Below, in pieces: positions 17,181-64,000 of a stretch of 64,000 nt of DNA. The stretch's first letter is position 1. Each line of letters opens with the position of its first letter. Source of the stretch: Prauserella marina. GTDB taxonomy: Bacteria > Actinomycetota > Actinomycetes > Mycobacteriales > Pseudonocardiaceae. A program made the translations under genes and the position numbers. The notes under the pieces were generated by a model that worked only from the letters and a program-made list of their open reading frames with translations, ran no database searches and was not told the origin of the DNA. The stretch spans positions 186,001-250,000 of the forward strand of contig NZ_CP016353.1 in NCBI RefSeq assembly GCF_002240355.1, written 5' to 3'.

Positions 17181-17186
17181 GCGCGC

Positions 17187-42346: not shown

Positions 42347-44470
42347 TTACTGCTTTGTTCCCAGTGCCTTCTTGGGTTCCGCGCGATACTCGTCTCGTTT
42401 GGTGCTGGAGACGACAGGGCCGCCAGGAGTGTCGACGTCCCAGGAATCCGCGGTGCGTTGCTCCGGCTGGGATGTGCCGTTGGTGCCGGAGCGCAGTACC
42501 GAGCGGGTGGTGCGGTCGGCCTGTGGGGTGCCGTGCCGTTGGTGTTCGGCCAGCGTGGCCGCAGCGGGGCCGCGCAGCGCGATGGGAACGTCGCCCAGCG
42601 GTTGCTGACCGTTCTGAGCCTGCTGTTCGGCGAGCCTGCCCTCGAACACCGGTGCGGTCCCGGTGTCGATGCCCGCCATGAGCTCGGCAGGCACCGCGCC
42701 TTCGGTGGCGGGACGCTTGCGTTGCTTCTTGGCAGCGGCCTTGCTCTTGGGCTCGACGCGTGCGCCGGACAGCACCGGCGGAATCGCCCCTGGAACGGAG
42801 GGAAGGCGGTCCCGTTCAGCCTCGGCCGCGGCGGCTTGGGCCTTCGCGCGCTTCTTGGTGTTCTTGTTGGTGTCGAGCACCGGTGCCGCAGGCGGGGGTG
42901 GCGGCCTGAACACGTCCTGGGATTCCAGCATCGGCGGGAGCCCAGGCAGAGGGACACCGGGCTTGTTGTTCTGCCTCCCCGGCGGTGCGCCCGCGGGAGG
43001 GGGCGGCACGGAACCGGGCCGGCCCATACCGGGAACGGGCGGCTCGCCGTCCTTGTTGCCCAGTACCTTGCCCTGCTGTTTCGGCTTCTGGGGGACACCT
43101 CCGGCTGGAGGCGGCATGACCTTGCCCGGCATCGCGCCTTTGGCCGGTGGGGCTCCGCCGGGAAGGCCGCCTCCTGGTGGCACCGGCGGCGATCCTCCCG
43201 GCGAGCTCGCGCCGAGGGTCGGCGGTACGCCCAGACCCTTGCCGCCCAGTCCAGGTGGCGCGCCGAGGCCCGGCGCCATGGGTGGTGCGCCAGGCTGGCG
43301 TAGCCCACTCGCACCTGGCGCTACGGGCGGAGCGACCGCCGGTGCGCCAGGTGGCGCACCGACAGGTCCCGAGGTGGGCGCGTTCGGAGGATTGAGGACC
43401 GGCGTCGCCGTCGGTGCCCGAGGAGTCGCGGTCGGCGCGACAGGAGGCCGCGCGCCGGGGGCCCTCGGCGCGCCTCCGGGGGGCTGCGCCCCGCCGAACA
43501 TCGGAGGCGGCGGAGCGCCATTGAACGCGGGAGCGGGCGGCCTTCCGCCCGGTGGTGTCGGCGTGGGACCGCTGAACGACGTCGGACCCGGGCCGGGCGG
43601 GGTCGGACCGCCACCGGGAGGCATTGGTGGCAGCGGCATACCGGTGGCCTCGGGGTGGAGGATCGCGTTCATCGGGGCCATCCGGTTCGCGCGAGCCGAT
43701 TCCAGCTTCGAGATGGCGTCGGAGTACGAATTGGCCGTCTCGCTGATGAGCTGCCGTGCCTCTTCGTTGTACTTCTCCCGCTGCTCCTTCATGAACGGCA
43801 GGTCATAACGATCGAGGACGGACTGCCGCACGGCGGTCCTCGCGTCACCCTCCAGTCCGGCGAGAGGGCCACTCGTCGCGTACCTCGAACCAGCGGGTGG
43901 GGCGTTGAGATAGTCGTCGGTCGCCTGCCACATGGCGTCCTTGTAGCGCTTCCACAGGTCCTTCATGTTGTTCTGCGCGGTACGCATCGCACCCGACAGC
44001 AGCGAAAGGCCGAGGTGGTTGGCTTCGGCTGCCTCGCGCCACATCTCGATGTGCGCCAGAGTTCCGCCTACCTTCATCAGGTAGGCCTCTTTCGCGGCAG
44101 GCGATTCCCACTCGGCTTCGAGCGAGCTGGTCTGGTTGAACAACTCGTTCTGGACGAAGAACAGCATCGCCTCGATGTTCCACCACTGGGTGGCCCTGTC
44201 CGACGTTGTCCCTGGCTGCTCGCCCATGATCTGATCGTTGATCTGGTCGATGTCGAGCGATTCGGCGGCGTCGGAGTCGGGCCCCGGCGTCTGGGCGTTC
44301 TCCAGCAACATCGGGGGAGAGGACTGCTCGTCGAGCGGTTTGCCCTGATTCCAGTAGGAGCTGTAGGTGACGGTATAGCCGGGGACGTGCTGGACGGCGA
44401 CGCTCTCGCCGGACAGGTCCTGGCGAAGCCGGTTGATGTCGTAACCGAAGTACTTCCAGTTCGGATCCAT
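42347..44470 (-). CDS. ESX-associated WXG-superfamily protein with proline-rich tail (paralogue 2)
   Basis: A 707-residue protein with the same plan as the 653-residue paralogue: MDPNWKYFGYDINRLRQDLS at the start, EWESPAAKEAYLMKVGGTLA in the helical domain (residues about 90-260), a very proline- and glycine-rich stretch from about 265 to 610, then PLGDVPIALRGPA and an end containing WDVDTPGGPVVSSTKRDEYR. It starts 3 bp after the stop of the gene upstream, so the three genes from 45487 down to 42347 and possibly 39310 belong to one ESX substrate block. Confidence 0.78.
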   Translation of the reverse strand: MDPNWKYFGYDINRLRQDLSGESVAVQHVPGYTVTYSSYWNQGKPLDEQSSPPMLLENAQTPGPDSDAAESLDIDQINDQIMGEQPGTTSDRATQWWNIEAMLFFVQNELFNQTSSLEAEWESPAAKEAYLMKVGGTLAHIEMWREAAEANHLGLSLLSGAMRTAQNNMKDLWKRYKDAMWQATDDYLNAPPAGSRYATSGPLAGLEGDARTAVRQSVLDRYDLPFMKEQREKYNEEARQLISETANSYSDAISKLESARANRMAPMNAILHPEATGMPLPPMPPGGGPTPPGPGPTSFSGPTPTPPGGRPPAPAFNGAPPPPMFGGAQPPGGAPRAPGARPPVAPTATPRAPTATPVLNPPNAPTSGPVGAPPGAPAVAPPVAPGASGLRQPGAPPMAPGLGAPPGLGGKGLGVPPTLGASSPGGSPPVPPGGGLPGGAPPAKGAMPGKVMPPPAGGVPQKPKQQGKVLGNKDGEPPVPGMGRPGSVPPPPAGAPPGRQNNKPGVPLPGLPPMLESQDVFRPPPPPAAPVLDTNKNTKKRAKAQAAAAEAERDRLPSVPGAIPPVLSGARVEPKSKAAAKKQRKRPATEGAVPAELMAGIDTGTAPVFEGRLAEQQAQNGQQPLGDVPIALRGPAAATLAEHQRHGTPQADRTTRSVLRSGTNGTSQPEQRTADSWDVDTPGGPVVSSTKRDEYRAEPKKALGTKQ

Positions 44471-45608: not shown

Positions 45609-48600
45609 TCAGTCCTCTTGAGGTAGATGTGCGAACTGCACGAGCCGTTCCCCTTCGCCACGTGTAATCAGCCAGCCTCGGCCCGGCGGCAGTTCCTCCG
45701 GCCTCCGGTTGCCGATCAGCGGGCCCTCCTCCCGCTTCCCCGACATCATGATGCCAGGAGAAGCGAGATCGCGGATGCGTGAAACTACGGGATCGAACAT
45801 CGCCCTTCCCGCGCCGCCTGAACGCCGGGTCAGCACGAGGTGCAGACCGATGTCACGGCCCTGGGTGAGGTAGTCGAGCAGCGGGCGGAGCGGGTTGTCG
45901 TGCGAACTGGGCGCGACGAGGTCGAAGTCGTCGACCAGCAGGAACAGCTCTGGTCCTTTCCACCAGCTCCGCTTTTTGAGCTGGTCAGGGGTGATGTTTC
46001 CGCCCGGCAGCCGCTTCTGCATCGCGCCGATGGTCACGTCGACCATTTCCTTGACCATCTTGTTGGTCGTCGAGTAGCCGATCAGATACTCGTCGGGAAT
46101 GAGGCCGAGGAGGCTTCGCCGGTAGTCGATGACCGCGATCTGGGCGCCCTCCGGGCTGTACCGGTTCATGATGCCGGTGGCCAGTGCCCGCAGGAAGTTG
46201 CTCTTGCCGCACTCGACGTCGCCGAAGAGCAGCAGGTGCGGTTCCGCCTCGAAGTTGAGGTACGCGGGCCCGAGGTCGTGCTCGGAGATGCCGACCGGGA
46301 TGCCGGGACCCTCGGAAGCCGGAGGAAGCTGCGAGAAGGGCAGTTCGGCAGGCAGCAGCCTCACGCGCGGCGCCGTGCGGCCGGTCCACGTGCCGTTGAT
46401 GGCATCGGCGAACGCCCCGATCGCGTCGGCGAGGTCGGTGTCGCTCGACGTGTTGTCGATGCGAGGGACGGCGGCGAGGAGCTGCCCGCCATCGGGGGAG
46501 AGGCCCCTGCCTGGCGAATTGGCCGGAACGCTCGCGGCCTGCCTCCTGCCGAACGAGGAGTCGATCGGGTCGCCGAGTCGCATCTCGACCCTGCTGCCGA
46601 ACATGTCGCGCACGTTCATGCGCAGGTCCATCCAGCGGTTCGCCGCGGCGAGGATGTGGATTCCGAAGCCGAGACCCCTGTTGACCAGCTCGTTGATCGT
46701 GGGTTCGACCTTCTCGAACTCACTGCGGAGGGTCGCCCAGCCGTCGATGACGATGAAGAGGTCGCCGAACGGGTCGTCCTTGTGCCTTCCTGCCTTCCGC
46801 TGCTTGCGGTAGGTGGCCATGCTGTCGATGCCGTATTCGGTGAAGCGCTGTTCCCGCTGCATCATCAGCGTGTAGGCCTCGGCGATACTGCGCCGCACCT
46901 CGTTGACCTGCCTGCGGCCCGCGATGCTGCTGACGTGCGCGAGGTTGCGCATCGCGGCCATTCCGCCGCCGCCGAAGTCGAGGCAGACGAACTGCACTTC
47001 CTCTGGTGTGTGGGTGAGCGCGAGACTGCCCATGATCGAGCGGAGCGCGGTGCTCTTCCCGCTGTGCGGTCCGCCGATGACGAGGACGTGGCCGCCGGAG
47101 CCTTCGAGATCCAGCCAGCACACGTCACGCCGCTGCTCGGCGGGCCGGTCGATGATGCCCGCCGCCGCGCGGAGGTTGCCGTGAAGTTCGGTGTTCTCGG
47201 TCGTCAGGCCACGATCCCTCGTGGCGACGAGCGGGCCGAGCAACTGGTCGAGCGTCGACGGCTCGTCGAGTGGCGGAAGCCACACCTGGTGGGCTGGCCT
47301 TCCCCTTCCCTCAAGCCGTTCGACGAGAACATCAAGCAGTGTTTCGCCGACTTCTTCCGACTCGTCCGGTTTGGCCTCGGCGACTGGCTCCTCCGCGATC
47401 CGGGGCCTCGCGTACCGCGTCGAGTAGTCCTGGACGGGGTCGAGCTGCCTGCCCTGGTTGTCGGTGCGGACGGGCGCGCCACCCTTGCGGTGAACGCCGG
47501 AGACATAGGCGGCCCTGAACCGCAGCAGATCGTCCGTGCCCGAGCGCAGGAAGCCGTTACCCGGCGAGCGCGGAAGCTGGAAGGCGTCCGGAGATCCGAT
47601 GGCTGCCCTGCTCTCCATGGCGGAGAAGGTTCGAAGGCCGATGCGGTAGGAAAGGTGCGAGTCGAGGCCGCGCAGCTTGCCTTCCTCCAGCCGCTGCGAG
47701 GCGAGCAACAGGTGGACGCCGAGTGAACGCCCGACTCGGCCGATCTGCACGAACATGTCGATGAAGTCGGGGCGGGCGGTGAGCAACTCCGAGAACTCGT
47801 CGACGATGACGAGCAGGGCGGGAAGCGGGTCGAGTGGAGCACCGGCCGCGCGAGCCTTCTCGTAGTCGCGCTGTGACCCGTAGTTACCCGCGCTACGTAG
47901 CAATTCCTGCCTTCGCAGCAGCTCGCCCTGTATCGCGTCGAGCATGCGGTCGACGAGGTGCAATTCGTCGGAAAGGTTGGTGATCACGGCGCTCGTGTGC
48001 GCGAGCCGGTCGAGTTTCGTGAAGGTGGCGCCACCCTTGAAGTCGACGAGCACGAAGTTGAGGATCTCGGAGTCGTGCGTCACGGCGAGCGCGAGCACCA
48101 GTGTGCGCAGAAGTTCCGATTTGCCCGAACCGGTCGCGCCGACGAGTAGACCGTGCGGGCCCATCCCGTCCTGGGCCGACTCCTTGAGGTCGAGTTCCAT
48201 CAGCCTGCCATCGGAGTTCAATCCGATCGGCACGCGAAGGCGGTCCCTGTTCGATCGCGTGGCCCACGCCTCCGACAGATCGAATTCGTAGGGATCACCC
48301 AGACCGAGCAAATCGGTCAGCTCAAGCGAGTTCGCAAGCGGTTGCTCGCTTGTGGACAGTGCGGAAAGGCGCATGGGGGCCAGGCTGCGGGCGAGCCCGT
48401 AGATGCCCGGGATGTCGAGGGCGTCGGCCTTGCCGATCGTGCCCTCGCCGTCCATCGTGCGGCTGTTCATCGCCCCCTCGGCGTCGATGTCCAGTACCAA
48501 GGTCGTCGCGTCGAGGATGCGGGGAGGCGGAGCGGAAAGGCTCACCAGCGTGACGCCCTCGACACCGCCGTCGATCATGAGGTGTTCGGAGCCGGCCGTT

Positions 48601-49577
48601 TCCCCTCCGTCGAGGAAAACGACGACGTGGGTGTTGCCGTCGCCGGTGATGGCGCCTGGGCTGAACCTCGGCCGGTTTGCCAGTACGTCGTCCAGCATCG
48701 CTTCCACCGAGCTGATACTCGGTGCCACCAGGCGAATCGGGCCAATAGCGTCCTGTTTGGACGGATGGAGGGCGTGGGGGATCCATTTCGCCCACTCCCA
48801 CTTTTCCCTGTCGTCGGGGTTGATGCAGAAGGCGGCGACGACGTCGCCGGGTGCGTGGAAAGTCGCGAGCTGGGCCATCAACGCACGCGCGAACGCGCGC
48901 TTTCTCTCCTGATCACCGGTGACGTAGATCCTCGAGAATCCGCGCAACGCGACGGCGACGGGAAGGTCGGGAACGGTCGAGTACGTGGTGACGAACTTCC
49001 GGAGCGCCATCGCGCACAGCGGCTCCAGTTCGTCGACCGGTTTCGTGTCGGGTGGCACGAGGGGTGTCGCCAGCTCCTGGCTGCCGACGCCGATCCGCAA
49101 GATCGTGAAGTCCCAGTCGTCCGGCCTTCGCTCCCATAACCTGGCACTGTGCGCCGTCGACCACAACTGGTCCGGGTTCGGATGCCGGTAGAACATGGCG
49201 AGGCGCTGCCGTTCGATGGTGTCGCGCACCTGCGCCCTCAGCTTGCTGAGCCGCCTCATGTACTTGCGCCGGTTCTCCAGCATCTCCTGCTTGCTGGGGC
49301 CGCCGCCTGCCTGGCTCATGATCTGGAACAGGATCATGCCGAGAATGGCGAATCCGTACAGACCGCCCGCGACGTACATAAGGGGGCCGCTACGGCCGGC
49401 CGTCATCATCAGGGCCATACCCGCCGTTCCGGCGAGCATCGGCAGGATCATGAGGGTGCGGGTCCAGTTCTTTTGCCCTGGTCCCGGGTTTTCCGGAGGT
49501 GATTCGAGAACGACCTCGCCTGAGGGGAGGTCAGGCGCGGGCCGGCGCAGCGGGCGCTTGACTATGATCGTTCCCAA
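45609..49577 (-). CDS. eccC: Type VII secretion ATPase EccC (FtsK/SpoIIIE family)
   Basis: A 1322-residue motor of the ESX system. Two membrane helices lie near residues 40-90, followed by three FtsK/SpoIIIE ATPase domains with P-loops GATGSGKSELLRTL, GGPHSGKSTALRSI and GDVECGKSNFLRAL and Walker B strands LLVIVDEFSELL, LFIVIDGWATL and LFLLVDDFDLV. The first P-loop is canonical; domains 2 and 3 keep the lysine. Family members begin with a short TIIVKRP strand, so the TTG at 49577, 7 bp after GGGAGG, is the best start; the frame extends to 49628. Divergent from eccD. Confidence 0.95.
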   Translation of the reverse strand: MGTIIVKRPLRRPAPDLPSGEVVLESPPENPGPGQKNWTRTLMILPMLAGTAGMALMMTAGRSGPLMYVAGGLYGFAILGMILFQIMSQAGGGPSKQEMLENRRKYMRRLSKLRAQVRDTIERQRLAMFYRHPNPDQLWSTAHSARLWERRPDDWDFTILRIGVGSQELATPLVPPDTKPVDELEPLCAMALRKFVTTYSTVPDLPVAVALRGFSRIYVTGDQERKRAFARALMAQLATFHAPGDVVAAFCINPDDREKWEWAKWIPHALHPSKQDAIGPIRLVAPSISSVEAMLDDVLANRPRFSPGAITGDGNTHVVVFLDGGETAGSEHLMIDGGVEGVTLVSLSAPPPRILDATTLVLDIDAEGAMNSRTMDGEGTIGKADALDIPGIYGLARSLAPMRLSALSTSEQPLANSLELTDLLGLGDPYEFDLSEAWATRSNRDRLRVPIGLNSDGRLMELDLKESAQDGMGPHGLLVGATGSGKSELLRTLVLALAVTHDSEILNFVLVDFKGGATFTKLDRLAHTSAVITNLSDELHLVDRMLDAIQGELLRRQELLRSAGNYGSQRDYEKARAAGAPLDPLPALLVIVDEFSELLTARPDFIDMFVQIGRVGRSLGVHLLLASQRLEEGKLRGLDSHLSYRIGLRTFSAMESRAAIGSPDAFQLPRSPGNGFLRSGTDDLLRFRAAYVSGVHRKGGAPVRTDNQGRQLDPVQDYSTRYARPRIAEEPVAEAKPDESEEVGETLLDVLVERLEGRGRPAHQVWLPPLDEPSTLDQLLGPLVATRDRGLTTENTELHGNLRAAAGIIDRPAEQRRDVCWLDLEGSGGHVLVIGGPHSGKSTALRSIMGSLALTHTPEEVQFVCLDFGGGGMAAMRNLAHVSSIAGRRQVNEVRRSIAEAYTLMMQREQRFTEYGIDSMATYRKQRKAGRHKDDPFGDLFIVIDGWATLRSEFEKVEPTINELVNRGLGFGIHILAAANRWMDLRMNVRDMFGSRVEMRLGDPIDSSFGRRQAASVPANSPGRGLSPDGGQLLAAVPRIDNTSSDTDLADAIGAFADAINGTWTGRTAPRVRLLPAELPFSQLPPASEGPGIPVGISEHDLGPAYLNFEAEPHLLLFGDVECGKSNFLRALATGIMNRYSPEGAQIAVIDYRRSLLGLIPDEYLIGYSTTNKMVKEMVDVTIGAMQKRLPGGNITPDQLKKRSWWKGPELFLLVDDFDLVAPSSHDNPLRPLLDYLTQGRDIGLHLVLTRRSGGAGRAMFDPVVSRIRDLASPGIMMSGKREEGPLIGNRRPEELPPGRGWLITRGEGERLVQFAHLPQED

Positions 49578-49677
49578 GACCGAACCTCCCGAACGCGGTT
49601 TTTCCCGTGGCCCACTTCCGTGGCGCACATTGTTACTCTGCCAGGCAAGCCTGGGTTCCTAATTGGAGGTATGTGCC

Positions 49678-51089: not shown

Positions 51090-52511
51090 GTGCCCACTCG
51101 GAAGGACCAATTACAGGCATACCAGTTCATGATGCGCCGGGTCACCTCCGCGCTCATCGTGCACGAGACCGATCCCGAGCAGACCCCTCTGCGCAGAGGG
51201 GTCGGCGCCGTGTTCGCGGGCGTGATGATCGCGGTGCTGGTCGCGGCGGGTTTCGGCATCTACGGCATCTTTACCGGCATGGGCGGCAACTCGTGGCGCC
51301 AGGACGGCACGGTGATCATCGAGAAGGAGACCGGCGCTACCTACGTTTACAGTGGTGAGGCGCTCCAGCCGGTGCTCAACGTCGTGTCGGGCAAACTGCT
51401 GAGCTCGGGCCAGAATCAGGGCGCCGAGCCGAAGCGGGTCTCCGGTTCCGACCTCGCGGACATGCCACGGAGGCCGATGGTCGGCATCGCGGGCGCTCCT
51501 GCCTCACTCCCGCCCGCCGACCGCGTCGCGAGTGCGCCGTGGACGATGTGTTCCGTCGGTGGCGAGGACATGGCCGGCTCCCCGACGACAAGCACGACCC
51601 TGATGGTCGGCGACCGGCTTTCCGACGACGTTCCGCTCGGATCGAACGGTCTGCTCGTCAGGGATGTCGAAGACGACTCGCTCTACCTGATCTGGAACAA
51701 CCACAGGTACCGGATCGCCGGTGACCGTCCCGACGCCGTCGTGCGGTCGGTCTTCGGTGCCCAGGCCGCCGTCATGGACGTGGGCACCGCGATGCTCAAC
51801 GGGTTGCCCGTCGGCCAGGACATCGGTCCGATCCAGGTCGATGGAAGGGGTAATTCCTCGACGGTCGTCTCCGGTTTCCAGGTCGGCGACATCGTCTTCC
51901 ACCCTGTCGGCGGCGGCGAGCAGTACTACCTCGTGCGCGGGGACGGGCTCGCTCCCATCACCGAATTGCAGACCCGGATCCTGCGTGGTCAGTACTCGGT
52001 GGAGCCCAAGGAGATCTCGGCTTCGGTCGCCAACTCGGCTCCGACGAGCGACGCGTTGGCGCCGGCGCAGGGCGAGGCAGCTCCGCCGCCGGTGGCACCG
52101 CCGCTCGCCGCCCCGGAGAACGGCACGGGATCCGCGTTGTGCGCCAGCACCTCGAACGCGCGCTCCGCGCCCGAGATCACGCTGGGCGGCGACACGTCGG
52201 CGCTGGACCACGGCATTGGTACGACCTCCGAAACCGAAGCTGGTACGAAGCTGGCCGACCAGGTCCTTGTGCCACCTGGCCATGTTTCGGTGGTCAGGGC
52301 CATGCCCTCGACAGGGCAGGGCGCCGGTGCTTTCGCCATCGTCACCGACGTCGGCCTGCGGTATCCGGTGCCTTCGCCGGATGTCCTCGCCGCGCTCGGT
52401 TACTCGGCCGAAACTGCCATCGACATGCCTGCCGCGTTGGTGCAGCGCATCCCGGCGGGTCCAACGCTGTCGCCAGAGGCCGCGATGCAGACGGCGCCAG
52501 CGCTCCCGTAG
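51090..52511 (+). CDS. eccB: Type VII secretion protein EccB
   Basis: A 473-residue protein with the diagnostic start TRKDQLQAYQFMMRRVTSAL, one membrane helix at about 42-65 (VFAGVMIAVLVAAGFGIYGIF) and a periplasmic-side domain with four repeat units. Two cysteines (APWTMCSVGG and GSALCASTS) match the conserved EccB disulfide. Starts with GTG at 51090. It is the third gene of the core ESX set after eccC and eccD. Confidence 0.95.
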   Translation: MPTRKDQLQAYQFMMRRVTSALIVHETDPEQTPLRRGVGAVFAGVMIAVLVAAGFGIYGIFTGMGGNSWRQDGTVIIEKETGATYVYSGEALQPVLNVVSGKLLSSGQNQGAEPKRVSGSDLADMPRRPMVGIAGAPASLPPADRVASAPWTMCSVGGEDMAGSPTTSTTLMVGDRLSDDVPLGSNGLLVRDVEDDSLYLIWNNHRYRIAGDRPDAVVRSVFGAQAAVMDVGTAMLNGLPVGQDIGPIQVDGRGNSSTVVSGFQVGDIVFHPVGGGEQYYLVRGDGLAPITELQTRILRGQYSVEPKEISASVANSAPTSDALAPAQGEAAPPPVAPPLAAPENGTGSALCASTSNARSAPEITLGGDTSALDHGIGTTSETEAGTKLADQVLVPPGHVSVVRAMPSTGQGAGAFAIVTDVGLRYPVPSPDVLAALGYSAETAIDMPAALVQRIPAGPTLSPEAAMQTAPALP

Positions 52512-53135: not shown

Positions 53136-53420
53136 ATGGTCCTCAAGTACACCGGAGCTGTCAGCGAGACCGGTAGCAGCGCCGTCGCCCAGGCAGAACA
53201 GATGAAGCAGCTCTTCACGGACCTCATGACGAGGGTCAAGGGCATCGACGAGGTCACCTGGAGCGGGCAGGTGCGCCAGTACTTCGAAGAAGCGCAGATC
53301 GCATGGAACAACGAGGCCGACGGCCTGAACAACGCCAACACCGACATCGGTCGGCTCACCCAGCAAGCGTACGAAAACGCCATGGGCGCCGACGCCAGGG
53401 GCGGAGCGATGTTGGCCTAG
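53136..53420 (+). CDS. WXG100-family protein (EsxA-like)
   Basis: A 94-residue protein with the WXG motif in EVTWSGQVRQYF and a C-terminal helix QQAYENAMGADARGG. The usual YxxxD/E export signal is not clear (Y is followed by a methionine at +4). CAGGGGG lies about 10 bp before the ATG. A strong terminator follows. Confidence 0.9.
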   Translation: MVLKYTGAVSETGSSAVAQAEQMKQLFTDLMTRVKGIDEVTWSGQVRQYFEEAQIAWNNEADGLNNANTDIGRLTQQAYENAMGADARGGAMLA

Positions 53421-53581: not shown

Positions 53582-54883
53582 TCACCTTGGGGGAGCTTCG
53601 CGGTCGCCGAACAGTTCGGCCGGCGGCTCGGGCAGGAAGTCCTCCGGCCGGTCGTAGGGATCTTCGGCGAATCCGGACTTCCAACGGCGGCGCTTGCCCT
53701 TGGGGCCGAAGACCATGAACGCCACGACACCGAGCGCGAGCGCGGCTCCACCGCCTGCCATCGCGATGGCGAGCGAGTTGCTGCTGTCTTCCGCGTTCGC
53801 CCTCGCCTCGGCGACCGGGTCGACGGGTGTCGGCTCCAGCGGTCCCAATTCGGTGGGATTTCCCTCCATGATTTTTTCCGTCACCGCTTGATAGGGGTTG
53901 ACGAGGCCGTAACCGTAGCGGTCGCTTCCCGTTCCTTCCGGCGCGGGTGCCGCGGTGGCCAATACTTTCCGCACCGTTTCACTCGCGGACAATTCGCCAT
54001 GGTAGGAGCGCGTCAGCGCGACCGTACCCGCCACGTAGGCCGCGGCGAAGGCGCTACCGGCCGCAGGCCCTACTCCGCCGTCCGGGTAGCTCGTGATCAC
54101 TCCGTCACCAGGGGCCACGAGGTCGACGTCAGAGGCGCGGGCCGACTGGGATACGACGCCCTCCGGGCCCACGGAGCTCACCCCGATCACCCCGGCGTAG
54201 GCCGCGGGGTATGGCCTGGCCGAAGGGGGCTCGTCGCGGGAGACCTCTCCGGTCGCGGCCACGACCACGATGTTGGCGTTGAGCGCCCTGTCGACGGCGG
54301 AGCGCAGTGCTTCGTTGTCCTCGTAGGTCACCGTCGACACGGTGATCACGGTCGCGTTCCTGTCGACGGCCCAGTTGATCGCGGCGGCAATGGGGCCGGC
54401 ACCGATGGTTTGACCCTGGCCCGATGGGAACCGGTCTCCGACGACCTTCGCCGACAGAATCGATGCTCCAGGCGCGACTCCGTGAAAGCCGTTGCCTGGG
54501 GTTTCCTGCGCGGCGACGATGCCAGCGACACCCGTACCGATGCCGATGCAGTCGCGCTTGCCGCTCGGCTCGCTGTTGCGCTCGGGGGGCACGAACTCCG
54601 TGCGCTCGGCCACGCGACCCGCGACGCTCGGGTTGTCCCCGACACCGGTCCCGACCACGGCGACTCGCTGACCGGAGCCGTTCGTGAGCGGCCAGACGCG
54701 CTCGGGCGAGAGCAGCTCCTGCGACCAGGGGCGAGGAGCCGAATCCGCGCCCGCCGTCGCGCAATCCTGTTGGGCCTGCGCGGGTGTCGCGGTCAGAATC
54801 GGTGCGCCGACCGCGAGAAGCAGACCACAGGTGGTCGACGCGAGGGTGCCGCGCAAGGTGTGATTCACATGCACGACCGGCAT
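53582..54883 (-). CDS. Mycosin-like subtilase with all catalytic residues replaced
   Basis: A 433-residue protein with a signal peptide (to about residue 37, LLLAVGAPILTATPAQAQ), a subtilisin S8 domain (about 55-375) and a C-terminal membrane helix (about 385-405) followed by KGKRRRW, the layout of MycP. The triad is gone: VAVVGTGVG has G78 for the Asp, GIGTGVAG has I115 for the His, and GSAFAAAYVAG has A278 for the Ser. The oxyanion Asn position reads ATGE. The fold motifs around each site are kept. Mycosins have a structural role in ESX complexes separate from proteolysis, which may be what remains. The ATG at 54883 is chosen because the signal peptide starts there. Confidence 0.88.
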   Translation of the reverse strand: MPVVHVNHTLRGTLASTTCGLLLAVGAPILTATPAQAQQDCATAGADSAPRPWSQELLSPERVWPLTNGSGQRVAVVGTGVGDNPSVAGRVAERTEFVPPERNSEPSGKRDCIGIGTGVAGIVAAQETPGNGFHGVAPGASILSAKVVGDRFPSGQGQTIGAGPIAAAINWAVDRNATVITVSTVTYEDNEALRSAVDRALNANIVVVAATGEVSRDEPPSARPYPAAYAGVIGVSSVGPEGVVSQSARASDVDLVAPGDGVITSYPDGGVGPAAGSAFAAAYVAGTVALTRSYHGELSASETVRKVLATAAPAPEGTGSDRYGYGLVNPYQAVTEKIMEGNPTELGPLEPTPVDPVAEARANAEDSSNSLAIAMAGGGAALALGVVAFMVFGPKGKRRRWKSGFAEDPYDRPEDFLPEPPAELFGDREAPPR

Positions 54884-54940
54884 GCTAGCGGAACCGGGCT
54901 GGCCGTCGCGGAAGTCGAAGCTGGGTAAGGAGGCAAGAGC

Positions 54941-55384
54941 ATGTTCGAGTGGCAAGGCGAGAAGTTCGAGTTCCATGAGGAGAAGGTCGATCCGATCTTC
55001 CAGCAGCTTCTGGACCAACTACAGCAGACGATGAACAACGTGCCGGAGATCCAGCGCAAGATGACGGAGGTCACCGGGACGGCGTGGTCGGACGACCGCA
55101 TGATCAAGGTCGTCGTCGGTCCGCGAGGTCAACTGGTCGATCTGGACATTGATCCGCGGATCTTCCGCAAGCCTGATGCCGCCGCCATGCGGAGCCAAAT
55201 CCTCGCTACGACACAGAAAGCCGTGCGGGAGGCCACCGACAAGGTCAACGAGCTCATGGAGAGCCAGTTCCCGCCCGAGATCGAAGAGATGCGGCAGAAG
55301 TACATTCCGGAGAGGGAGAGCTCTGCTCCGGAGTTCACTCGTACCGATGCCGAATTTTACGCGGAACGAGAGGATGGCAAATGA
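54941..55384 (+). CDS. YbaB/EbfC-family protein (EspL-like) in the ESX locus
   Basis: A 147-residue protein whose core (residues about 20-115) matches the YbaB/EbfC fold: VVVGPRGQLVDLDIDPRIF and SQILATTQKAVREATDK. In ESX loci YbaB-like proteins such as EspL act as cytoplasmic partners of substrates. It overlaps the next gene by 4 bp (ATGA) and lies upstream of the giant protein gene. Confidence 0.8.
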   Translation: MFEWQGEKFEFHEEKVDPIFQQLLDQLQQTMNNVPEIQRKMTEVTGTAWSDDRMIKVVVGPRGQLVDLDIDPRIFRKPDAAAMRSQILATTQKAVREATDKVNELMESQFPPEIEEMRQKYIPERESSAPEFTRTDAEFYAEREDGK

Positions 55385-55780: not shown

Positions 55781-58700
55781 TTGGGTGTCAACCCGCTTGA
55801 TGGCCCAATAGCCGCCTTCGCACAGGCCATGAAGGACTTCGGCGGGTCCATCGACGACTTCGTCAGGGAGTTCAACGACTGGCTTGGCTTCAGCGCCGCA
55901 CCTCCGGTTGCCGGAATGATGATCGAGGGTCTTTTCGGCCCGTATCCGGAAGCGCTGGACGAGAAGGTCGCCGAGATTGTCCGGCTGGCGATGGAGGACG
56001 CCGAGAACAGCGCGGACTTCTTCGAGAACATGGCTTCCGCGGTCGAGGGCATCGACCTGAACTGGCAGGGTGACGGAGCCCCGCAGAGCCTGCAGATCCT
56101 GATGTCGAACTACATCATGAGTGGTAACGACATCGTGCGGAGCAAGCTCGACATCGCGAAGGGTAACGCTGACTTCTATCAGCAGACGATCCTTTCGAAG
56201 AACATGTACCAGGCCAACTTGATTTTCCTGCTCTTCGAGTTGGTCAGGGCCGTGATCGCGGCGATCCCTTCATTGGGTACCTCGCTCGCGGGGATTCCGA
56301 TCGCACTGGGGGTGGCCTGGACGGCGGTCAGGTCAGTGGCAAGAGCCCTCGCGAGCGGCGTTTCGTCGATCAGCATGCAGGTCGCCTTCCGTGGGCTGGC
56401 CAGGGGTACTGGCGTCGTCTTGTACAACGCGGGTAAAACGGCCGTGACAGCCGCCGGTAGGGCGGTGCCGGCCGCGGGTAGAGGAATCGTCACGGGTGGG
56501 CGGAATTTCGCCCGCAACTACAGCATCAGGCCCAGTTCGATCGCCGGGCGTATCGGTGCCTCGCAAGTTCAGCGGCAGGCGGTCAACAAGGCCATCCGCG
56601 AAGGGGCGACGCGCGCCACGGTGCGCGAACTGAAGAGCGCGGCGGCCCGTCGGGCGATCGCGCATCAACTGACTCAGCAGTTCAGGGGAAGAGCAGGGGC
56701 CACACTCGCGAACTCGCTCTCCAACCCGGCAAGGGCCGCCATCACCAGCGGCATCAGTCAGGCATTGGTGGCCTCGACCGCGAGGCGCGGCTTGATGGGC
56801 AGGGCTCTCGGTATGAGCGCCACGCACACCGTCAAGGGCATGAGTACGTGGAACGTCATCGGGCAGAAGCTCATGGGCTACGGCGTGCGCAGTGCCTTCA
56901 TGTTCGGTTTGGCATCGGATCTTGCCGGTCAGGGCATGACCATGTGGGAAACCCGGCAGATCGAAGGTAACGCCGATCTCCAGAAACTCATGCGGTACGA
57001 CTACAACGGCGTCAGTACCGCGGCTGCCATCGTCGGTGCCGGCGTCGGCGGTGGTGGGCTTGCCTTCGCCAGCGGGATACCCGGATACATCGTGACGGGT
57101 GCGGCGAGCGGTGTCCTCGCGCATTTCAGTACCGTCGCCCTTACGGCTGCTCTCGACCCGAATGCGACGTTCTCTCTTCCTGGCAGGGCGACGGCTGGTG
57201 CCGACCCGAACCAGATGACCTGGGAAGAGGTTGCCCAGGCAGCCGTCGGTGGCGCGATGGGCGGTATCTGGGAAGTCAAGGTCGGCGACGCCAGCTTCCG
57301 GGACTTCGGCCATAACCTCGCGGACGCCAAGCACGCGTTCTCCAACATGAGCTTTATGAACGACCTGAGGGGCAACTCGGTCGCGCCAGGGGGCTACGTG
57401 GCCAGTGCGCCTCTCCCCATGGGAGGGGCAAGCGCGGTGGCCGGAGCGAACACCGCAGCCGCGAACCTTCAGGCCCAGAACGCCCAGAACGCGGCCAACA
57501 CCGCATCGGGTTCTGGGCAATCACCAGCCGGAAGGGCAACCGGACCGTCCACAGGGGAGCAAACTGGCAATACGGGTTCCCGTACCCCTGGGGCGAGCGA
57601 CAACAACGGAGCCGACCGGCAGACAGACGAGAATTCCGTTCCGCAGCAAAGGGCCGAGTCGCCTGAGTCGGGTGAGACCGAGTCGCAGGTGCCCGAAGCG
57701 CAGCCCGACTCCGGTACTCCGCAGACCGGAGAGAGTGCAGCGGATCGCCAGGTCAATGTCCTTCCCGATGGGTCCATTCCGGACAGTGCGCAGCAGTCGG
57801 ATGTCGGAGATCCGGGAACACAAACACAGTCACCTGAACAGTCTGATGTGGACCGAGGTGACCCGCAAGCTGGGCAGCAGGCCGATCAGGGAGATGGCTC
57901 GGAGGGAGCGGGCCAGTCTTCACAAGACGATCGCGGTGAAACAGCGGATCAGCCTGGGGCAGCCGTCACGGCCGAAACCGGCGACGGGGCGAACGCCGAC
58001 GGTGCCACGTCCGAAACGGGCGACAGCGCGGACACGAGTGACACTTCTCAGCAGGCGACCGGCGACAGCGCAACCGACGGTCAGACGCGGCTCAACGAGC
58101 CGACGCGCAACGAGGCGCAGACGTTGTCTCCGGGCGAAGCGCTAACCGACTCCGTGGAGTCCCCTGACAACGTCAAGGCATTCATCGCGCGGGAAATCGA
58201 CGCGATGACGAGCGCCGGCTCGGCCTCGGTCGACCAGAGCACGGGAGTCATTACCTTCACCTCGGCGGGGCAGGTCGGGCACGCCGTCGCTACCCTCAAC
58301 TCGGACCTGGCGCCAGGTGAAGCGAGGTTCGTTCCCGGCGAGTACATGCTGACCTCGGAAGGCTGGGTCGAGACATCGCCCGCGCAGCTGCAGTATTCGC
58401 CCGAGGTTTCGCCCGACTTCACCGAGGCCGCAACTCAGATTTCGAGGCACACTGTCCAAATGGGAGAGTTGCTGCTCTCCGATTCGCCGATTGTCGATCC
58501 GGCGAACATCACGGCGAAGTCCGGTGTCGCGGCTGCGGCCGCGAACGACCCGCGTCCTCCCGTCGACGGTGATGTCCAACGGCCGCTGGCGCGATTGATC
58601 CGTTTTGGAGGGACGTCGGCGACCACGGCGGCGACATCCGAATCCGATGCCGTACGTACGCTGAACGCGGCACTTCAGGACGTGCAGACCTCGCTCAGCA

Positions 58701-61700
58701 ACGGCACGGAATCCGGTTCCGGAAGCGATCGGGTCGTGGCGCTGGTCGGTGACGTCGAGGCCGGAACGTCGGAGCAAGTGGGGCAGGGAGACAACGGCCA
58801 GCTCCCGTTCGGCATGGGAACGAGCTCTTCGGAAGGAAGACTCGTCGCCTATTTCGCCGATGGGACGGGGATTCCGGTCGACATCGGTATCGATGGAGAC
58901 CTCGCGCCCGGCACCGCGCGGGTGAGTTCGGCGGAATGGTATTTCACGAACGGGCAGTGGACGACGCCGAACGGAGTCGCCGAGGTTGCGATCGCACCTG
59001 GTGGGACCGAGGCACAAATGCGGTCCGCCGTTCTCGAAGCCCTCAGCGGTCTGCGAGAGGACGTGCCGGGTAGCGGCAACTCCGACGTAGGCCAATCCGC
59101 GAACCGGTACAACATCCACGCCGCACGGTCACTGGCGCAGCAGCAAGCGGTTAGCAGGGACGTCGGCAGTTCGGAGAGCCACACCTCGCGCCAGGGCGAG
59201 ATGTCCGCACATTTGCATGCTGCCATCGATCGGTTGTCGCAGCCTGGTGCGCTCGTCGTGTCGGACGCCGATTCCAGCGTGGCGCAGAACAACGACGAGA
59301 GACTGCCGACGAAGGCGGAGTTCCTGACGTCGACGCTGGTGCGATTGCACTATCCCAACGCGACAGTCGACATGCGCGTCATGGTCGGCGGGGAGCAGCA
59401 GGTCATCCCGCCCCAGGTCGATGTCGTCGACGGGGTACTGGTTCAGGTCGGCCTCGGAATCATGCAGTTCACGGGCAACGGTCCCGAGGGTGCGATGGCT
59501 CAGCAGTTGCTGGCGAATGTCCAGGCGCGGCAAGCTTTGGTGGACCTCGGGGCGATGGTCGAAGGTCAGGGCAACGTCGCAGACGGCCGGATGCAAGTCG
59601 CTCTCGACAGCTCGCTTTACTCGATCTCCGAAGCGATCCGGACGGCGGTCGACAACGCGTCCCAGGTATCGGAGCACCTCACCTCCGAAACCCCGGAAGC
59701 GCACCGGGCGAGCCTGTTGCCGGATCACCTCGCGCCGCGGGGCGAGCAAGGGTATTACGCGGTGCGCCTTCCCGGGCACGGTGTCTTCGCGGACCAAGCG
59801 CAAGCGGCATTGGCGGCCGTCGCGGCACAGGGCTTCCGGCTTCTGGGCATCACCGATGGCTGGGCACAGGGCCAGCCCGGTGTGGTTTCCTCGTGGCATG
59901 ACCAGGCGACCGGCCGGACTCTGCATCTGCGGTTGACGACTCCGGACGGTATCGTCGCGGCGCGCAGGGCGGGCGAACTCGGCGAACTGGCGGGGGAAAC
60001 TCCGAGTGCCGACGTCCTCGAACAGCGCCAGCAGATTCTCGAAGCGGTCAAGCGTCCGTCCGATGTGGACGCTGTGCTGGCTTTCGACCCGTCGGGCTCG
60101 GCGACACCCAATGCGTGGGACATCGTCACCGACTCCCGCCATCCGGAGCCCTCCTCCATCGCACTGTCGAGTACGACGCTCGACGACATCATGACGACGC
60201 GTGGCCCGGAGTCCACGGCCGCCGAACTGGCGAGGTTCGCGCCTGAGCTGTTCGCCGAAGGGGAGAGCCCGCGTGACCTCGTGCGGGACATCGTGACCAG
60301 CGTCGCGATGAACCCGGACACCGTCATTGGGCGTGACGACGATGGCAATTGGACGGTGCGCGGCCAACGGCACGGCGTCACGGTCGAGGTCATCGTGGCG
60401 GAAGACGGGGCAATCACCAGAGCCGTCCCCACTGACGGTGACTTGGTCAGGCAGGGTGGCGAAGTCCGAACCTCTGGTGAACAGTCCACGGCCTCACTCC
60501 TTGGCGGGTCACTCACCTCTGAGCAGCTCGCTACCCTGACGTCGGCGGTGAACGGCGTCGAAGGTGCCGCGCTGACTCCCGGCCTCGCCACGACTGACGG
60601 CGCGGCGCGGTTCACCGTCCGGCTTCCGGAAGCCGGCAGCTTCGTCGACAACGCGGCGACGGTGCTGCAATCTCTCACGAACGACGGCTATCGGGTCACC
60701 ATGCTGCCGGAACAGGGCCCGGTTGGTGCGCGGAACACCATGCTCGTCGGCGTCAGGCAGCCTGATTCGAGCCGCATGATCTTCCTGCGGTTCGATGTCG
60801 AGGGCGCGCCCGCAATCCCCGCTGAGGCGGCTTTCGCCGACGTGGTGAGTGTTGTCGACGACGTCGACAGCAGCTTCACCGTCACCTCGGTCGGCGAACC
60901 AGGAGGCGCTGCCGCCCCGCTGAAAGTCGAAGTGGCCGCGAAGACCTACGTGAGGGATTCCGAGGCAATCCTGCAAAGTCTCGCCGACAGGGGCTATCGG
61001 CTTGTCGGTGCGAACAACAACTGGGGCAAGCCGGGGCAGGCAGGCTGGGGCACCGTCTGGCAGTCACCGCACGGCGGAACCGTTGCTCTGCTGCTGACGA
61101 CGGCGGAAGCGGATGCCTTCAACGCCGACCTCGCGGAGCGGCTGGAAGAGATGCCGGAAGGCGACCGGCGTCGCAGGGTGTGGCTGCGGAACCAGCAACT
61201 CTTGGGCCGTCTGGGGGAGACTCCGATCCCCCTCGGGGCCGACCGGCTGAGGCTGCCCGACCTTCCGATGGCCGAGAGCCAGAGCGGCGCGACTTTTGAC
61301 CAACAGGCTTCACTGGACGCGCAAGCCGATGTGCCGATCAAGGTGCGCATTCAGCCGGGTAAGTACGTGACGATCATCGTCTCGGCCGATCCCGGTACCA
61401 CGCCGCTCGACGCCGCGGAGCGCGTCGCCGCCGGGTTGCGGCAGGGAGCGAACCGACTGGATGGCGAAGAGGTCGTCGTCACCGTGCCCAGCGGGGTCGA
61501 CCCGAGCACACTCGGTTTCGATCTGCGGGCATTCGGCACAGCGCTGTCCACCAAACTTGGCGGGGCCGACGTGGGGAGCGTCGCACCGGCCAATTGGCAG
61601 CCGCCGCGTTATCCGGCAGATAACGTCACCGTCAGCGACGTCGCCCTGGATCGTGTCATTGCCCAGATCGGGCCGGAATCGACGGCGCCGGGAGCGCTCG

Positions 61701-64000
61701 CGCTTGACGCCTCCTGGTTCGGCGGCGACGACGTTCGCGCCAGGATGACGTCGGTCATCAGTACCGTAACGAGGCTGCCAACCAGTGTGCGGGCGGAAGG
61801 CGAGGGGCTGTTCCGGCACTGGGTGGTGGAAGGTACTCATGCCGGTGTCACCTTTGGTGTCGTCGTCAGGCTGGACGGGTCCGTCGAGAGTGTCCACGTC
61901 CTCGACGGCAGCCAGGGCGACCTCAGGAAGGTTCCGAACGTCAGGCGCTCGGGCAGCGCCAGCTCCTGGCGGCCGCCCGAGGAAGAAGCTGAGCAGGAAC
62001 CGCACCAGCCTCCGCGGTTCCCGCCGCGGCCACCACAGGCTCCCTCACGCTTCGATCCGGACGGTTTCGATCGGGATGCGTTCGGCGATGCCCGCCAGGG
62101 ACCGTACCGGCCGCGGGATCTCGGTCTCGGCGACGTTTGGTACTACGACTCGGAATACGCACCGGCGCAACAGCCGCTGATTCCGGTTGCCCCTGACGCG
62201 TTGGCATCGCCGAGTGCCGACAGAGCGCCCTCGGATGCGCCGACGACTCCGATCAGCACCGAGAGTTCCAACCCCGTGCTGCGCGTGTCACCGGGGCCGA
62301 CGGTTCTGGACGCCGCCTCACTCGACCTTGAGGAGACAGCACAGCTCGTCGGTGGCGCCCTTGCCGACATCGAAGGTGACGCGGTGATCACCCATGTCCC
62401 GGATCAGGACAATCCGGGACGGTGGAGGGTCGAATCGTCCGATGGCCTGCGGTGGGAGTTCCAGGTCGGCACCCAGCGCGGCGTGCCAAGCATCACCGTT
62501 CCCGAACTTCGTCTCGTGGACGGCAAATGGGAGTTGACCGGGCCGGTCGAGGTGATGCTTCCTACGCTCCCCATCGGTAGTCAGGCGCAGGCCGAGACTG
62601 TTGGTCCGGTGTTGAGTGCAGCCCTCACGCAGACTCCTTCCGAGATGCGGAGGCTGGTTTCCGAGGTACCGGCAACCAGCGACGAGGCGCTACCGCCGCT
62701 CGGTGACCTGCTCCCGCAGCCACCGCCCGCGCCGGGATCTGCTCAGTTGCCCTCGGTCGTCCCCGACGGCAACCATGCTGCCGCGCGCATCGGCAACGGG
62801 GCTGACTGGATTCGTACCTTGCCCGCGAATCAGCAGGTCGCGTTGCAGGACGCGATCGCCCTTCGTTCCGACGAACGCAACAATGCGTTGCGGACGCTCA
62901 CCGGCAACTTGACGCCTGCGCAGCAAGCCGAGTTCTCCCGTCGCCCTGTCACGGGACAGGAATTGCTGGAATCCGGCGCTTTCGCCCGTCATTCCGATGA
63001 AACAGCCGCAAGGACAGCGGAAACCGAAGCCAACACCGTCAACAATCTGGATAGGGCGTTCGCCGGCGCTGTGTCCTCGACGGCACCCGCGAAGGTGCAC
63101 TGGTGGTCCGACAGCGTCGGTGCTGTTTTCGGCGGCGACCTCACGAACCTTGAGGGCCGACGGTTTGTCAACGCGGGGCACACATCCACCAACCTCCACC
63201 AGCCGACGACCGGTCAGCCCGAGGTTCGTGCCACGGTGCTCCTTCCCTCCGGCACCAAGGCAATCCATGCGGGCGAACTCTCCGACAACACGGTCCTGCT
63301 GCCCCGTGGGTCGGAGTTCACGGTCGTCAACGCGGAGCAGGCCGTTGTCGACGGCAGGGAAGTGCTGCTGCTCGAACTGGAACTGACCGGCGGTCCCGCA
63401 CTCAGCGGAACGGAAATGTCCAGCGTCGCGGACATGACCAAACTGGAGGACTGGACAGGCCAGGCTTCCAGCCCTTCGGCGATCTTCCAGGATGCCGAAG
63501 GTCGGCAGTGGTACGTCAAATCCGCCGGCTCCGCGCTGCACGCGGAGAACGAGGTCGCGGCAGGAGCGCTGTATCGTGCCTTCGCCGACAACTTCTACCA
63601 GGCCACTGGCGTTCGGTTGCCCGCGCCGGAGACGAAGGTGGTCCGGCTTGAGGGAGAACTCGATCCGCGTAGTGAGTACGGTGTCGCAAGCGCCTGGCTG
63701 GAGAACGACGGTGCGCTGACCGCCGACGCGATGGCCGAACTTTCCGCCGAGCAACAGCATCAGGTGTGGGGTGGCTTCGCCGCCGATGCGTGGCTCGCGA
63801 ACTGGGATGTCGCGGGCCCCCAGCACGTCGATGTCTCCGGTGGCACGTTCGAGAACGTGCGCTCGACGGGACGCGGTCCGGCGCGCATCGAGTTCGGCGG
63901 GGCGATGTTGTTCACCGGCCTCGGCATCGAGAAGGGAGGTCAGTTCGGCGGGGATGTCACCGAGCTGGCCGGTTTGCGCAACTCTGCCGTCAACCGTACG
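55781..64000 (+). CDS. Giant ESX-type polymorphic toxin-like protein, C-terminus beyond the window
   Basis: The frame stays open from TTG at 55781 (GAGGAGGT 5 bp before it) to the window edge, at least 2740 residues. Residues 1-145 are helical with a WXG-type turn (W95-Q-G97). Hydrophobic segments lie at about 147-190 and 411-458. Residues about 548-784 are acidic, Q- and S-rich linker. About 785-2060 are beta-rich modules including three related copies of an LPxxG-xxxGYR unit (about 1322, 1609 and 1700). About 2062-2140 is proline-rich. Residues about 2425-2547 resemble an ADP-ribosyltransferase fold with altered key residues, and 2548-2740 a kinase-like fold. No signal peptide; export by the ESX machinery is inferred from position. 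Confidence 0.85.
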   Translation, partial: MGVNPLDGPIAAFAQAMKDFGGSIDDFVREFNDWLGFSAAPPVAGMMIEGLFGPYPEALDEKVAEIVRLAMEDAENSADFFENMASAVEGIDLNWQGDGAPQSLQILMSNYIMSGNDIVRSKLDIAKGNADFYQQTILSKNMYQANLIFLLFELVRAVIAAIPSLGTSLAGIPIALGVAWTAVRSVARALASGVSSISMQVAFRGLARGTGVVLYNAGKTAVTAAGRAVPAAGRGIVTGGRNFARNYSIRPSSIAGRIGASQVQRQAVNKAIREGATRATVRELKSAAARRAIAHQLTQQFRGRAGATLANSLSNPARAAITSGISQALVASTARRGLMGRALGMSATHTVKGMSTWNVIGQKLMGYGVRSAFMFGLASDLAGQGMTMWETRQIEGNADLQKLMRYDYNGVSTAAAIVGAGVGGGGLAFASGIPGYIVTGAASGVLAHFSTVALTAALDPNATFSLPGRATAGADPNQMTWEEVAQAAVGGAMGGIWEVKVGDASFRDFGHNLADAKHAFSNMSFMNDLRGNSVAPGGYVASAPLPMGGASAVAGANTAAANLQAQNAQNAANTASGSGQSPAGRATGPSTGEQTGNTGSRTPGASDNNGADRQTDENSVPQQRAESPESGETESQVPEAQPDSGTPQTGESAADRQVNVLPDGSIPDSAQQSDVGDPGTQTQSPEQSDVDRGDPQAGQQADQGDGSEGAGQSSQDDRGETADQPGAAVTAETGDGANADGATSETGDSADTSDTSQQATGDSATDGQTRLNEPTRNEAQTLSPGEALTDSVESPDNVKAFIAREIDAMTSAGSASVDQSTGVITFTSAGQVGHAVATLNSDLAPGEARFVPGEYMLTSEGWVETSPAQLQYSPEVSPDFTEAATQISRHTVQMGELLLSDSPIVDPANITAKSGVAAAAANDPRPPVDGDVQRPLARLIRFGGTSATTAATSESDAVRTLNAALQDVQTSLSNGTESGSGSDRVVALVGDVEAGTSEQVGQGDNGQLPFGMGTSSSEGRLVAYFADGTGIPVDIGIDGDLAPGTARVSSAEWYFTNGQWTTPNGVAEVAIAPGGTEAQMRSAVLEALSGLREDVPGSGNSDVGQSANRYNIHAARSLAQQQAVSRDVGSSESHTSRQGEMSAHLHAAIDRLSQPGALVVSDADSSVAQNNDERLPTKAEFLTSTLVRLHYPNATVDMRVMVGGEQQVIPPQVDVVDGVLVQVGLGIMQFTGNGPEGAMAQQLLANVQARQALVDLGAMVEGQGNVADGRMQVALDSSLYSISEAIRTAVDNASQVSEHLTSETPEAHRASLLPDHLAPRGEQGYYAVRLPGHGVFADQAQAALAAVAAQGFRLLGITDGWAQGQPGVVSSWHDQATGRTLHLRLTTPDGIVAARRAGELGELAGETPSADVLEQRQQILEAVKRPSDVDAVLAFDPSGSATPNAWDIVTDSRHPEPSSIALSSTTLDDIMTTRGPESTAAELARFAPELFAEGESPRDLVRDIVTSVAMNPDTVIGRDDDGNWTVRGQRHGVTVEVIVAEDGAITRAVPTDGDLVRQGGEVRTSGEQSTASLLGGSLTSEQLATLTSAVNGVEGAALTPGLATTDGAARFTVRLPEAGSFVDNAATVLQSLTNDGYRVTMLPEQGPVGARNTMLVGVRQPDSSRMIFLRFDVEGAPAIPAEAAFADVVSVVDDVDSSFTVTSVGEPGGAAAPLKVEVAAKTYVRDSEAILQSLADRGYRLVGANNNWGKPGQAGWGTVWQSPHGGTVALLLTTAEADAFNADLAERLEEMPEGDRRRRVWLRNQQLLGRLGETPIPLGADRLRLPDLPMAESQSGATFDQQASLDAQADVPIKVRIQPGKYVTIIVSADPGTTPLDAAERVAAGLRQGANRLDGEEVVVTVPSGVDPSTLGFDLRAFGTALSTKLGGADVGSVAPANWQPPRYPADNVTVSDVALDRVIAQIGPESTAPGALALDASWFGGDDVRARMTSVISTVTRLPTSVRAEGEGLFRHWVVEGTHAGVTFGVVVRLDGSVESVHVLDGSQGDLRKVPNVRRSGSASSWRPPEEEAEQEPHQPPRFPPRPPQAPSRFDPDGFDRDAFGDARQGPYRPRDLGLGDVWYYDSEYAPAQQPLIPVAPDALASPSADRAPSDAPTTPISTESSNPVLRVSPGPTVLDAASLDLEETAQLVGGALADIEGDAVITHVPDQDNPGRWRVESSDGLRWEFQVGTQRGVPSITVPELRLVDGKWELTGPVEVMLPTLPIGSQAQAETVGPVLSAALTQTPSEMRRLVSEVPATSDEALPPLGDLLPQPPPAPGSAQLPSVVPDGNHAAARIGNGADWIRTLPANQQVALQDAIALRSDERNNALRTLTGNLTPAQQAEFSRRPVTGQELLESGAFARHSDETAARTAETEANTVNNLDRAFAGAVSSTAPAKVHWWSDSVGAVFGGDLTNLEGRRFVNAGHTSTNLHQPTTGQPEVRATVLLPSGTKAIHAGELSDNTVLLPRGSEFTVVNAEQAVVDGREVLLLELELTGGPALSGTEMSSVADMTKLEDWTGQASSPSAIFQDAEGRQWYVKSAGSALHAENEVAAGALYRAFADNFYQATGVRLPAPETKVVRLEGELDPRSEYGVASAWLENDGALTADAMAELSAEQQHQVWGGFAADAWLANWDVAGPQHVDVSGGTFENVRSTGRGPARIEFGGAMLFTGLGIEKGGQFGGDVTELAGLRNSAVNRT

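Follow-up and report, generated by a model that had tools for sequence, protein, structure and literature searches.

The Giant Gene and Its ESX Locus

The window analyzed here, 64,000 nucleotides of Prauserella marina (NZ_CP016353.1; C1:186001-250000 in a 6.99-Mb genome of two contigs), carries an ESX (type VII secretion) locus and ends inside an open reading frame (ORF) encoding a giant protein, which judging from its sequence we read, by a slight preference, as a multi-domain effector exported by the adjacent ESX machine and not as a classical polymorphic toxin. The ORF begins at a TTG codon with AGGAGG before it and stays open past the window edge for 49,560 bp of the same contig, up to C1:299560, giving a total of 19,259 codons (57.8 kb). 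Reading the right flank therefore bore out the original prediction, made from the letters of the window, of one gene of more than 8.2 kb with its true C-terminus beyond the edge (49.6 kb further).

The length of the frame is in itself no proof of a gene, since GC-rich DNA gives long antisense ORFs: one of 1,842 amino acids (aa) lies inside the frame of the window giant, and those inside other giants reach 5,702 aa, none of them coming near the scale of 19,259 codons. The guanine plus cytosine content at codon positions 1, 2, and 3 (about 0.69, 0.49, and 0.79) shows a coding pattern throughout the frame. In two pairs of related giants, the ratio of non-synonymous to synonymous changes (dN/dS) was 0.15–0.67 in all 34 windows of 700 aa, calculated on the aligned part of each (0.15–0.52 in the 21 windows of G070/G102 and 0.27–0.67 in the 13 windows of G002/G003; G and L numbers are our labels for genomes and loci). 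The compared giants are under purifying selection along their whole length, and we take the window giant to be a single long gene under selection.

As had been predicted, a YbaB-like and a WXG-like gene precede the giant in a locus encoding EccC, EccB, and a mycosin (Table 1); EccD and EccE were not identified within the window. The small WXG-like gene has homologs at the G070, G102, and G001 loci, and no match to it was found in Pfam or NCBIfam. We compared the synteny of 18 giants read whole (8,437–27,313 aa; the ORFs of G153, G210, G185, and G120 carrying the module described below were left out). A YbaB homolog lies 343–480 bp upstream of all 18, and EccC is present at 15 of the 18 loci, the window's own counted. 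Downstream of the window giant, an SseB-like gene encoding 297 aa (PF07179, 9.2e-7) begins 55 bp past the stop codon; it also matches, under cut-off, the NCBI family “type VII secretion system-associated protein” (1.3e-6). The SseB-like gene lies at less than 400 bp in 10 of the 17 testable loci, including that of the window, and at 1.6–3.2 kb in five more, where other ORFs are found in between (those of G093 and G060, 345 and 339 aa long, are 75% alike); G221, with a flank of only 467 bp, was untestable. The exceptions are G000b, which is followed by a convergent regulator, and G020, where the SseB-like gene is located upstream.

TABLE 1. Genes of the ESX locus and parts of the giant protein inside the window (positions counted from the first nucleotide of the window).
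Feature	Position	Strand	Evidence or remark
EccC ATPase	45609..49628	-	TIGR03924 2.4e-286, TIGR03925 1.5e-257
EccB	51090..52511	+	TIGR03919 1.8e-86
WXG100 gene	53136..53420	+	PF06013 3.5e-6
Mycosin-like subtilisin protease	53582..55018	-	TIGR03921 2.2e-68, under family cut-off
YbaB/EbfC-family gene	54941..55384	+	PF02575 1.6e-15
Small WXG-like gene, 108 aa	55381..55707	+	About 74 bp 5' of the giant
Giant ORF, first 2,740 of 19,259 codons	55781..64000	+	Reading frame; no stop before window end
Conserved N-terminal block, aa 15-498 (WXG100_2/CpnT-type in homologs)	55823..57274	+	Alignment; contains W95-x-G97
Hydrophobic segment, aa 144-168	56210..56284	+	Hydropathy scan
Acidic Gly/Ser/Thr/Gln-rich linker, aa 501-790	57281..58150	+	Composition: 16% D+E, 4% K+R
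Internal repeat copy 1, aa 1439-1566	60095..60478	+	Self-BLAST, 28.8% identity, E 1e-5
Internal repeat copy 2, aa 1932-2058	61574..61954	+	Pairs with aa 1439-1566
Candidate ADP-ribosyltransferase-like module, aa 2388-2541	62942..63403	+	Pfam PF03496 2.3e-4, under cut-off
Kinase-like module (by eye only), aa 2561-2764	63461..64000 (cut by window edge)	+	Alignment, common to four other giants

In the part of the giant inside the window, the N-terminal block was aligned across six giants, with 22–32% identity to the window copy, and matches to the WXG100_2 family PF25547 were obtained with homologs (1.2e-12 for the P. cavernicola copy and 0.022 for that of G020). The WXG-type N-terminus initially proposed is supported by these data, and the long acidic linker was found as described. 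Where hydrophobic segments and repeated beta modules had been announced, one segment and one protein-level repeat pair were detected. The enzyme-like fold expected near the edge may be the ADP-ribosyltransferase (ART)-like module, which also gave profile matches in PDB (8za7, 4.9e-4; 1ojq, 0.006); it keeps an STS-like HTSTN motif, and its ExE region, placed by eye, reads SDNTVLLPRG, with no Glu. The kinase-like module matched nothing in PDB and drew no support from Pfam.

An HTH-BTAD-NB-ARC-TPR regulator is located about 5 kb beyond the SseB-like gene. Regulators of the HTH-BTAD type flank 7 of the 18 giants, on flanks of unequal lengths (L005:14621-17881, L017, L022, L058, L061, L077, and L082). 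Elsewhere in the window, two ORFs (39310-41271, 653 aa, and 42347-44470, 707 aa; minus strand) are without cysteine and have similar starts (MDPNW..FGY); homologs were found at ESX loci that harbor other giants, and no NCBIfam match at 0.01.

Distribution of the Giants and the 830-aa Module

A search with the N-terminal 566 aa gave matches in 6 of 60 genomes, the strain's own and one weak match (9.3e-4) being counted, and these include a second giant of the strain's own genome; the same-genus relatives compared were Prauserella cavernicola, P. endophytica, and P. flavalba. A module of 830 aa, located near the C-terminus of the window giant (aa ~16,863–17,693), was identified in 20 of 200 genomes of the family, belonging to 5 of 44 genera, with four candidates scored per genome; among 393 sampled genomes of the class, it was found in the strain's own genome and as two partial matches. 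The 23 module-bearing ORFs comprise 22 of 8,440–27,324 aa and one of 3,433 aa. All 18 giants read whole carry the module (35 matches, several split in two), and the N-terminal block was detected in 17 of them by profile search. The presence of the module in 12 of these giants reflects selection, as they were found through it, but the five found independently by their N-terminus (G000b, G020, and G001–G003) all carry it too.

The 830-aa module has no Pfam relative and no sequence relative in PDB at E 1. Its AlphaFold2 model (predicted local distance difference test, pLDDT, 75.7; predicted template modeling score, pTM, 0.75) alternates small sheets with long helical hairpins and gave no Foldseek match at 0.001; from the modeled hairpins, a role in membranes is a guess.

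A second giant of the same genome (27,313 aa; C1:4825894-4907835, minus strand; loci L017–L021) stands beside another EccC. Its last ~10,600 aa resemble a four-fold repeat of ~2,750 aa. A third module-bearing ORF of this genome (L123; G000:C1:3999039-4007834, minus strand) encodes 2,931 aa without cysteine. Two HTH-BTAD regulators are convergent with these genes, one at 60 bp from the second giant and one ending 8 bp from L123. Four EccC-type ATPases are encoded in the genome (G000:C1, at 232, 669, 4472, and 4911 kb); the three examined, at 232, 4472, and 4911 kb, have giant or multi-kb toxin-like ORFs nearby.

Very long ORFs of a second kind, which lack the module, encode 5,134–11,795 aa (L158–L164 and L168–L169). 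Four such giants (G023, 11,177 aa; G015, 11,795 aa; G062, 9,289 aa; and G000d, 5,134 aa), a set that leaves out G029, whose 12,488-aa frame was incomplete in the stretches read, showed no match to the module and carry PF15644 matches.

Cysteine Depletion

The window giant has no cysteine in its 19,259 aa. The 18 giants together have 18 cysteines in 290,869 aa (0.006%), eight of them having none, and contain 1.4% tryptophan and 2.4% histidine (a count in which two copies were partial). Three sets of sequences served as controls: 20 ordinary CpnT-type toxins of the family, with 80 cysteines in 59,144 aa (0.135%, or 0.090% once the first 130 aa are excluded); 142 other mechanically called ORFs from the same stretches, some of which are surely not genes (0.81%); and ten mechanically called ORFs of the window (0.6%). 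The full CpnT-type rate would predict 26 cysteines for the window protein and 393 for the 18 giants together. CpnT-type ESX toxins are thus generally cysteine-poor, and the module-bearing giants, at 0.006%, are 15 to 22 times poorer. The giants' homologs share the type of N-terminal domain (PF25547) of the CpnT-type toxins, which among the matches listed correspond to frames of 290–6,235 aa, but the giants have thousands more residues and have lost nearly all their cysteine.

The module-less giants resemble the window giant in being very long and cysteine-poor and in carrying PF15644 matches. They have 18 cysteines in 37,395 aa (0.048%), 13 of which are located in repeated or PF15644-type motifs (NCTRC, LIACDSAVG, VVACAPGEA, GCNIRAH, and similar ones), read here as probable active sites, whereas the window giant has lost those sites. 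The only two cysteines of the 27,313-aa paralog occur in LLSCRAGG and LSVCRAGD, which look like caspase/CHAT active sites; three related copies in the window giant, called caspase-like by eye, have no cysteine.

APH-like and amidohydrolase folds are frequent in cytosolic metabolism, and modules resembling both occur in the window giant (see below), as might be expected if it were a cytosolic protein, such as a multi-enzyme scaffold, that is never exported and merely happens to be encoded in an ESX locus. To our knowledge, the exclusion of cysteine is not expected of cytosolic proteins, and with the WXG-type N-terminus and the constant position in ESX loci it makes this explanation very improbable.

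Enzyme-Like Modules and Their Catalytic Residues

The window giant matches PF15644 despite having no cysteine. The catalytic signature of the Tox-PL1/PF15644 glutamine deamidases is given as NC-H-DxQ (Zhang et al., 2012; PMC3482391); this signature was not found in the giant, which reads NDVAANLALHD at 14172 and 18126, and 13 of the 17 rows compared from frames of less than 5,000 aa have a cysteine at that site. Being without cysteine, the papain-fold deamidase-like modules cannot be cysteine enzymes. Set beside the anthrax-lethal-factor-like modules of Zhang et al. (2012), the window giant has six zincin-like copies, four of them with HExxH, for which no supporting Pfam or PDB match was found. 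Of the 52 zincin-like copies counted across the giants, 22 have HExxH; the eight giants of genus g26 have 18 copies, a single one of which shows this motif.

A module at aa 9262–9720 may belong to the amidohydrolases, as its model is a TIM barrel bearing the metal ligands HxH, H, H, and D, which are invariant in 12 aligned rows. An APH match was also obtained.

These features bear on the main rival explanation, which we consider rather unlikely: the giant may be a mostly non-catalytic scaffold or decoy, secreted or at the surface, in which dead enzyme folds bind ligands. The cysteine-dependent modules, dead without cysteine, and the scarcity of HExxH in the zincin-like copies fit this idea, as does purifying selection acting despite dead folds. 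The invariance of the amidohydrolase ligands argues against it, however, as does the conservation in the window giant of HExxH in four zincin-like copies and of four HxDxxxxN motifs.

The C-Terminal Part and the Question of Immunity

A classical polymorphic toxin would have a conserved export stalk, an exchangeable C-terminal toxin, and a neighboring immunity protein. The WXG-type N-terminus in an ESX locus and the toxin-like folds agree with this description, and the SseB-like neighbor could serve as a general immunity protein. Seven pairs of related giants were compared window by window (G093/G060 on whole copies). The two Prauserella pairs are least conserved over their last 1,500–1,700 aa (48–61%, with 70% in the last 166 aa of G002); the highest dN/dS values (0.52–0.67) occur in the last part of G002/G003, and G060 extends ~470 aa past the end of G093. 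In six of the seven pairs, however, the last window aligns at 61–85%, and the large differences between paired giants are internal jumps of up to ~2,900 aa. In G093/G060, aa 13,000–20,500 are rearranged, and agreement is 64% over the final 159 aligned aa. There is no swapped tip in the compared pairs, so that the exchangeable toxin tip originally predicted was not seen.

A cognate immunity gene next to the giant is unlikely. The SseB-like genes within 3.2 kb at 15 of the 17 testable loci are of the same family although the contents of the giants differ, and the match to a type VII secretion-associated family, under cut-off, likewise speaks against the polymorphic toxin, which we hold to be improbable here. 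The prediction of an ESX-linked modular effector was upheld as regards the WXG-type N-terminus, the modules, and the enzyme-like domains, and failed as regards the exchangeable tip. A C-terminus lacking both toxin-like domains and any variable tip or immunity gene was to have told against it; toxin-like folds do exist, several of them without catalytic residues, so that this holds in part.

The proportion of changed synonymous sites between G070 and G102 (L056–L061) is mostly 0.22–0.57 before aa 9,800 and falls to 0.12–0.20 beyond that point, a drop that would fit a recent exchange of the C-terminal third.

Proposed Function and Relation to Known Systems

Coming back to the slightly preferred reading of an exported multi-domain effector, we infer export, threading, a membrane role, enzyme activity, and a target as follows. 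The WXG100_2-type N-terminal hairpin would target the giant to EccC, probably as a pair with the product of the small WXG-like gene upstream, and the chain would pass the ESX channel largely unfolded; having no cysteine, it would form no disulfides and expose no reactive thiols on the way. Outside the cell, the 830-aa module would serve as a membrane anchor, a membrane-inserting unit, or a spacer for the cargo, and the cysteine-independent modules (amidohydrolase-, zincin-, APH-, and ART-like) would act on the target cell. Since neither a swapped tip nor an obvious immunity gene was found, a distant bacterium or a eukaryotic grazer is a likelier target than a sister strain.

Several points weigh against this reading, in addition to the divergent ends of some paired giants. 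The window copy's own N-terminus did not reach E 0.1 with PF25547, and YxxxD/E is absent from the first 260 residues of the giant and from its small WXG-like partner. The amidohydrolase-like model is of modest confidence (pLDDT 65.5), with no Foldseek match at E 0.001 and no Pfam match, and a simple scan of the corresponding copy in the 27,313-aa paralog showed no HxH. Many modules look dead, including the cysteine-less PF15644 and caspase-like modules, the ART-like module without ExE, and most zincin-like copies.

A more specific version is tentative. The giants may be lineage-specific ESX substrates of ~1–3 MDa in which the export channel drives the purge of cysteine from almost all positions, sparing mostly active-site-like motifs in other giants and hardly any in the module family, so that only cysteine-independent enzymes would stay alive; the module would be a new membrane-translocation unit, present in up to four tandem copies, and a eukaryotic grazer would be the target.

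In MARTX and other large multi-effector toxins, many effectors are likewise carried by one huge chain, MARTX relying on the type I pathway and on an identified processing peptidase; the giants differ in being encoded in an ESX locus, and no processing peptidase was identified in them. Giant actinobacterial proteins with several toxin domains are already known: the longest toxin in the set of Zhang et al. (2012; PMC3482391) is the 13,652-aa SACTE_5178 of Streptomyces sp. SirexAA-E. As described there, it is actinobacterial, exceeds 10,000 aa, and combines several effector folds in one chain (ART, zincin, caspase-like, and papain-like). With its 19,259 aa and its ART-like, PF15644, and APH matches, the window giant likewise combines more than 10,000 aa with several toxin folds. 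It differs from SACTE_5178, as far as the published description goes, in the size reached in its genome (19,259–27,313 aa), the near-total exclusion of cysteine, the shared 830-aa module, and the ESX locus with its SseB-like gene. In the open-licence literature, preprints excluded, no mention was found of ESX giants lacking cysteine, of giants in Prauserella, or of the module. What is new with respect to Zhang et al. (2012) is the cysteine purge, the shared module, and the size; no size record is claimed, because a survey of huge proteins places those of Omnitrophota among the largest ever reported (PMC11573180).

How big the cargo of a type VII system can be, and in what folding state it travels, is an open question, for which a nearly cysteine-free ESX-locus family of 8,000–27,000 residues provides a natural experiment, its modules being testable singly. 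Cysteine content may serve as a footprint of threading. The data presented here also suggest that a giant ESX protein need not be a polymorphic toxin with immunity.
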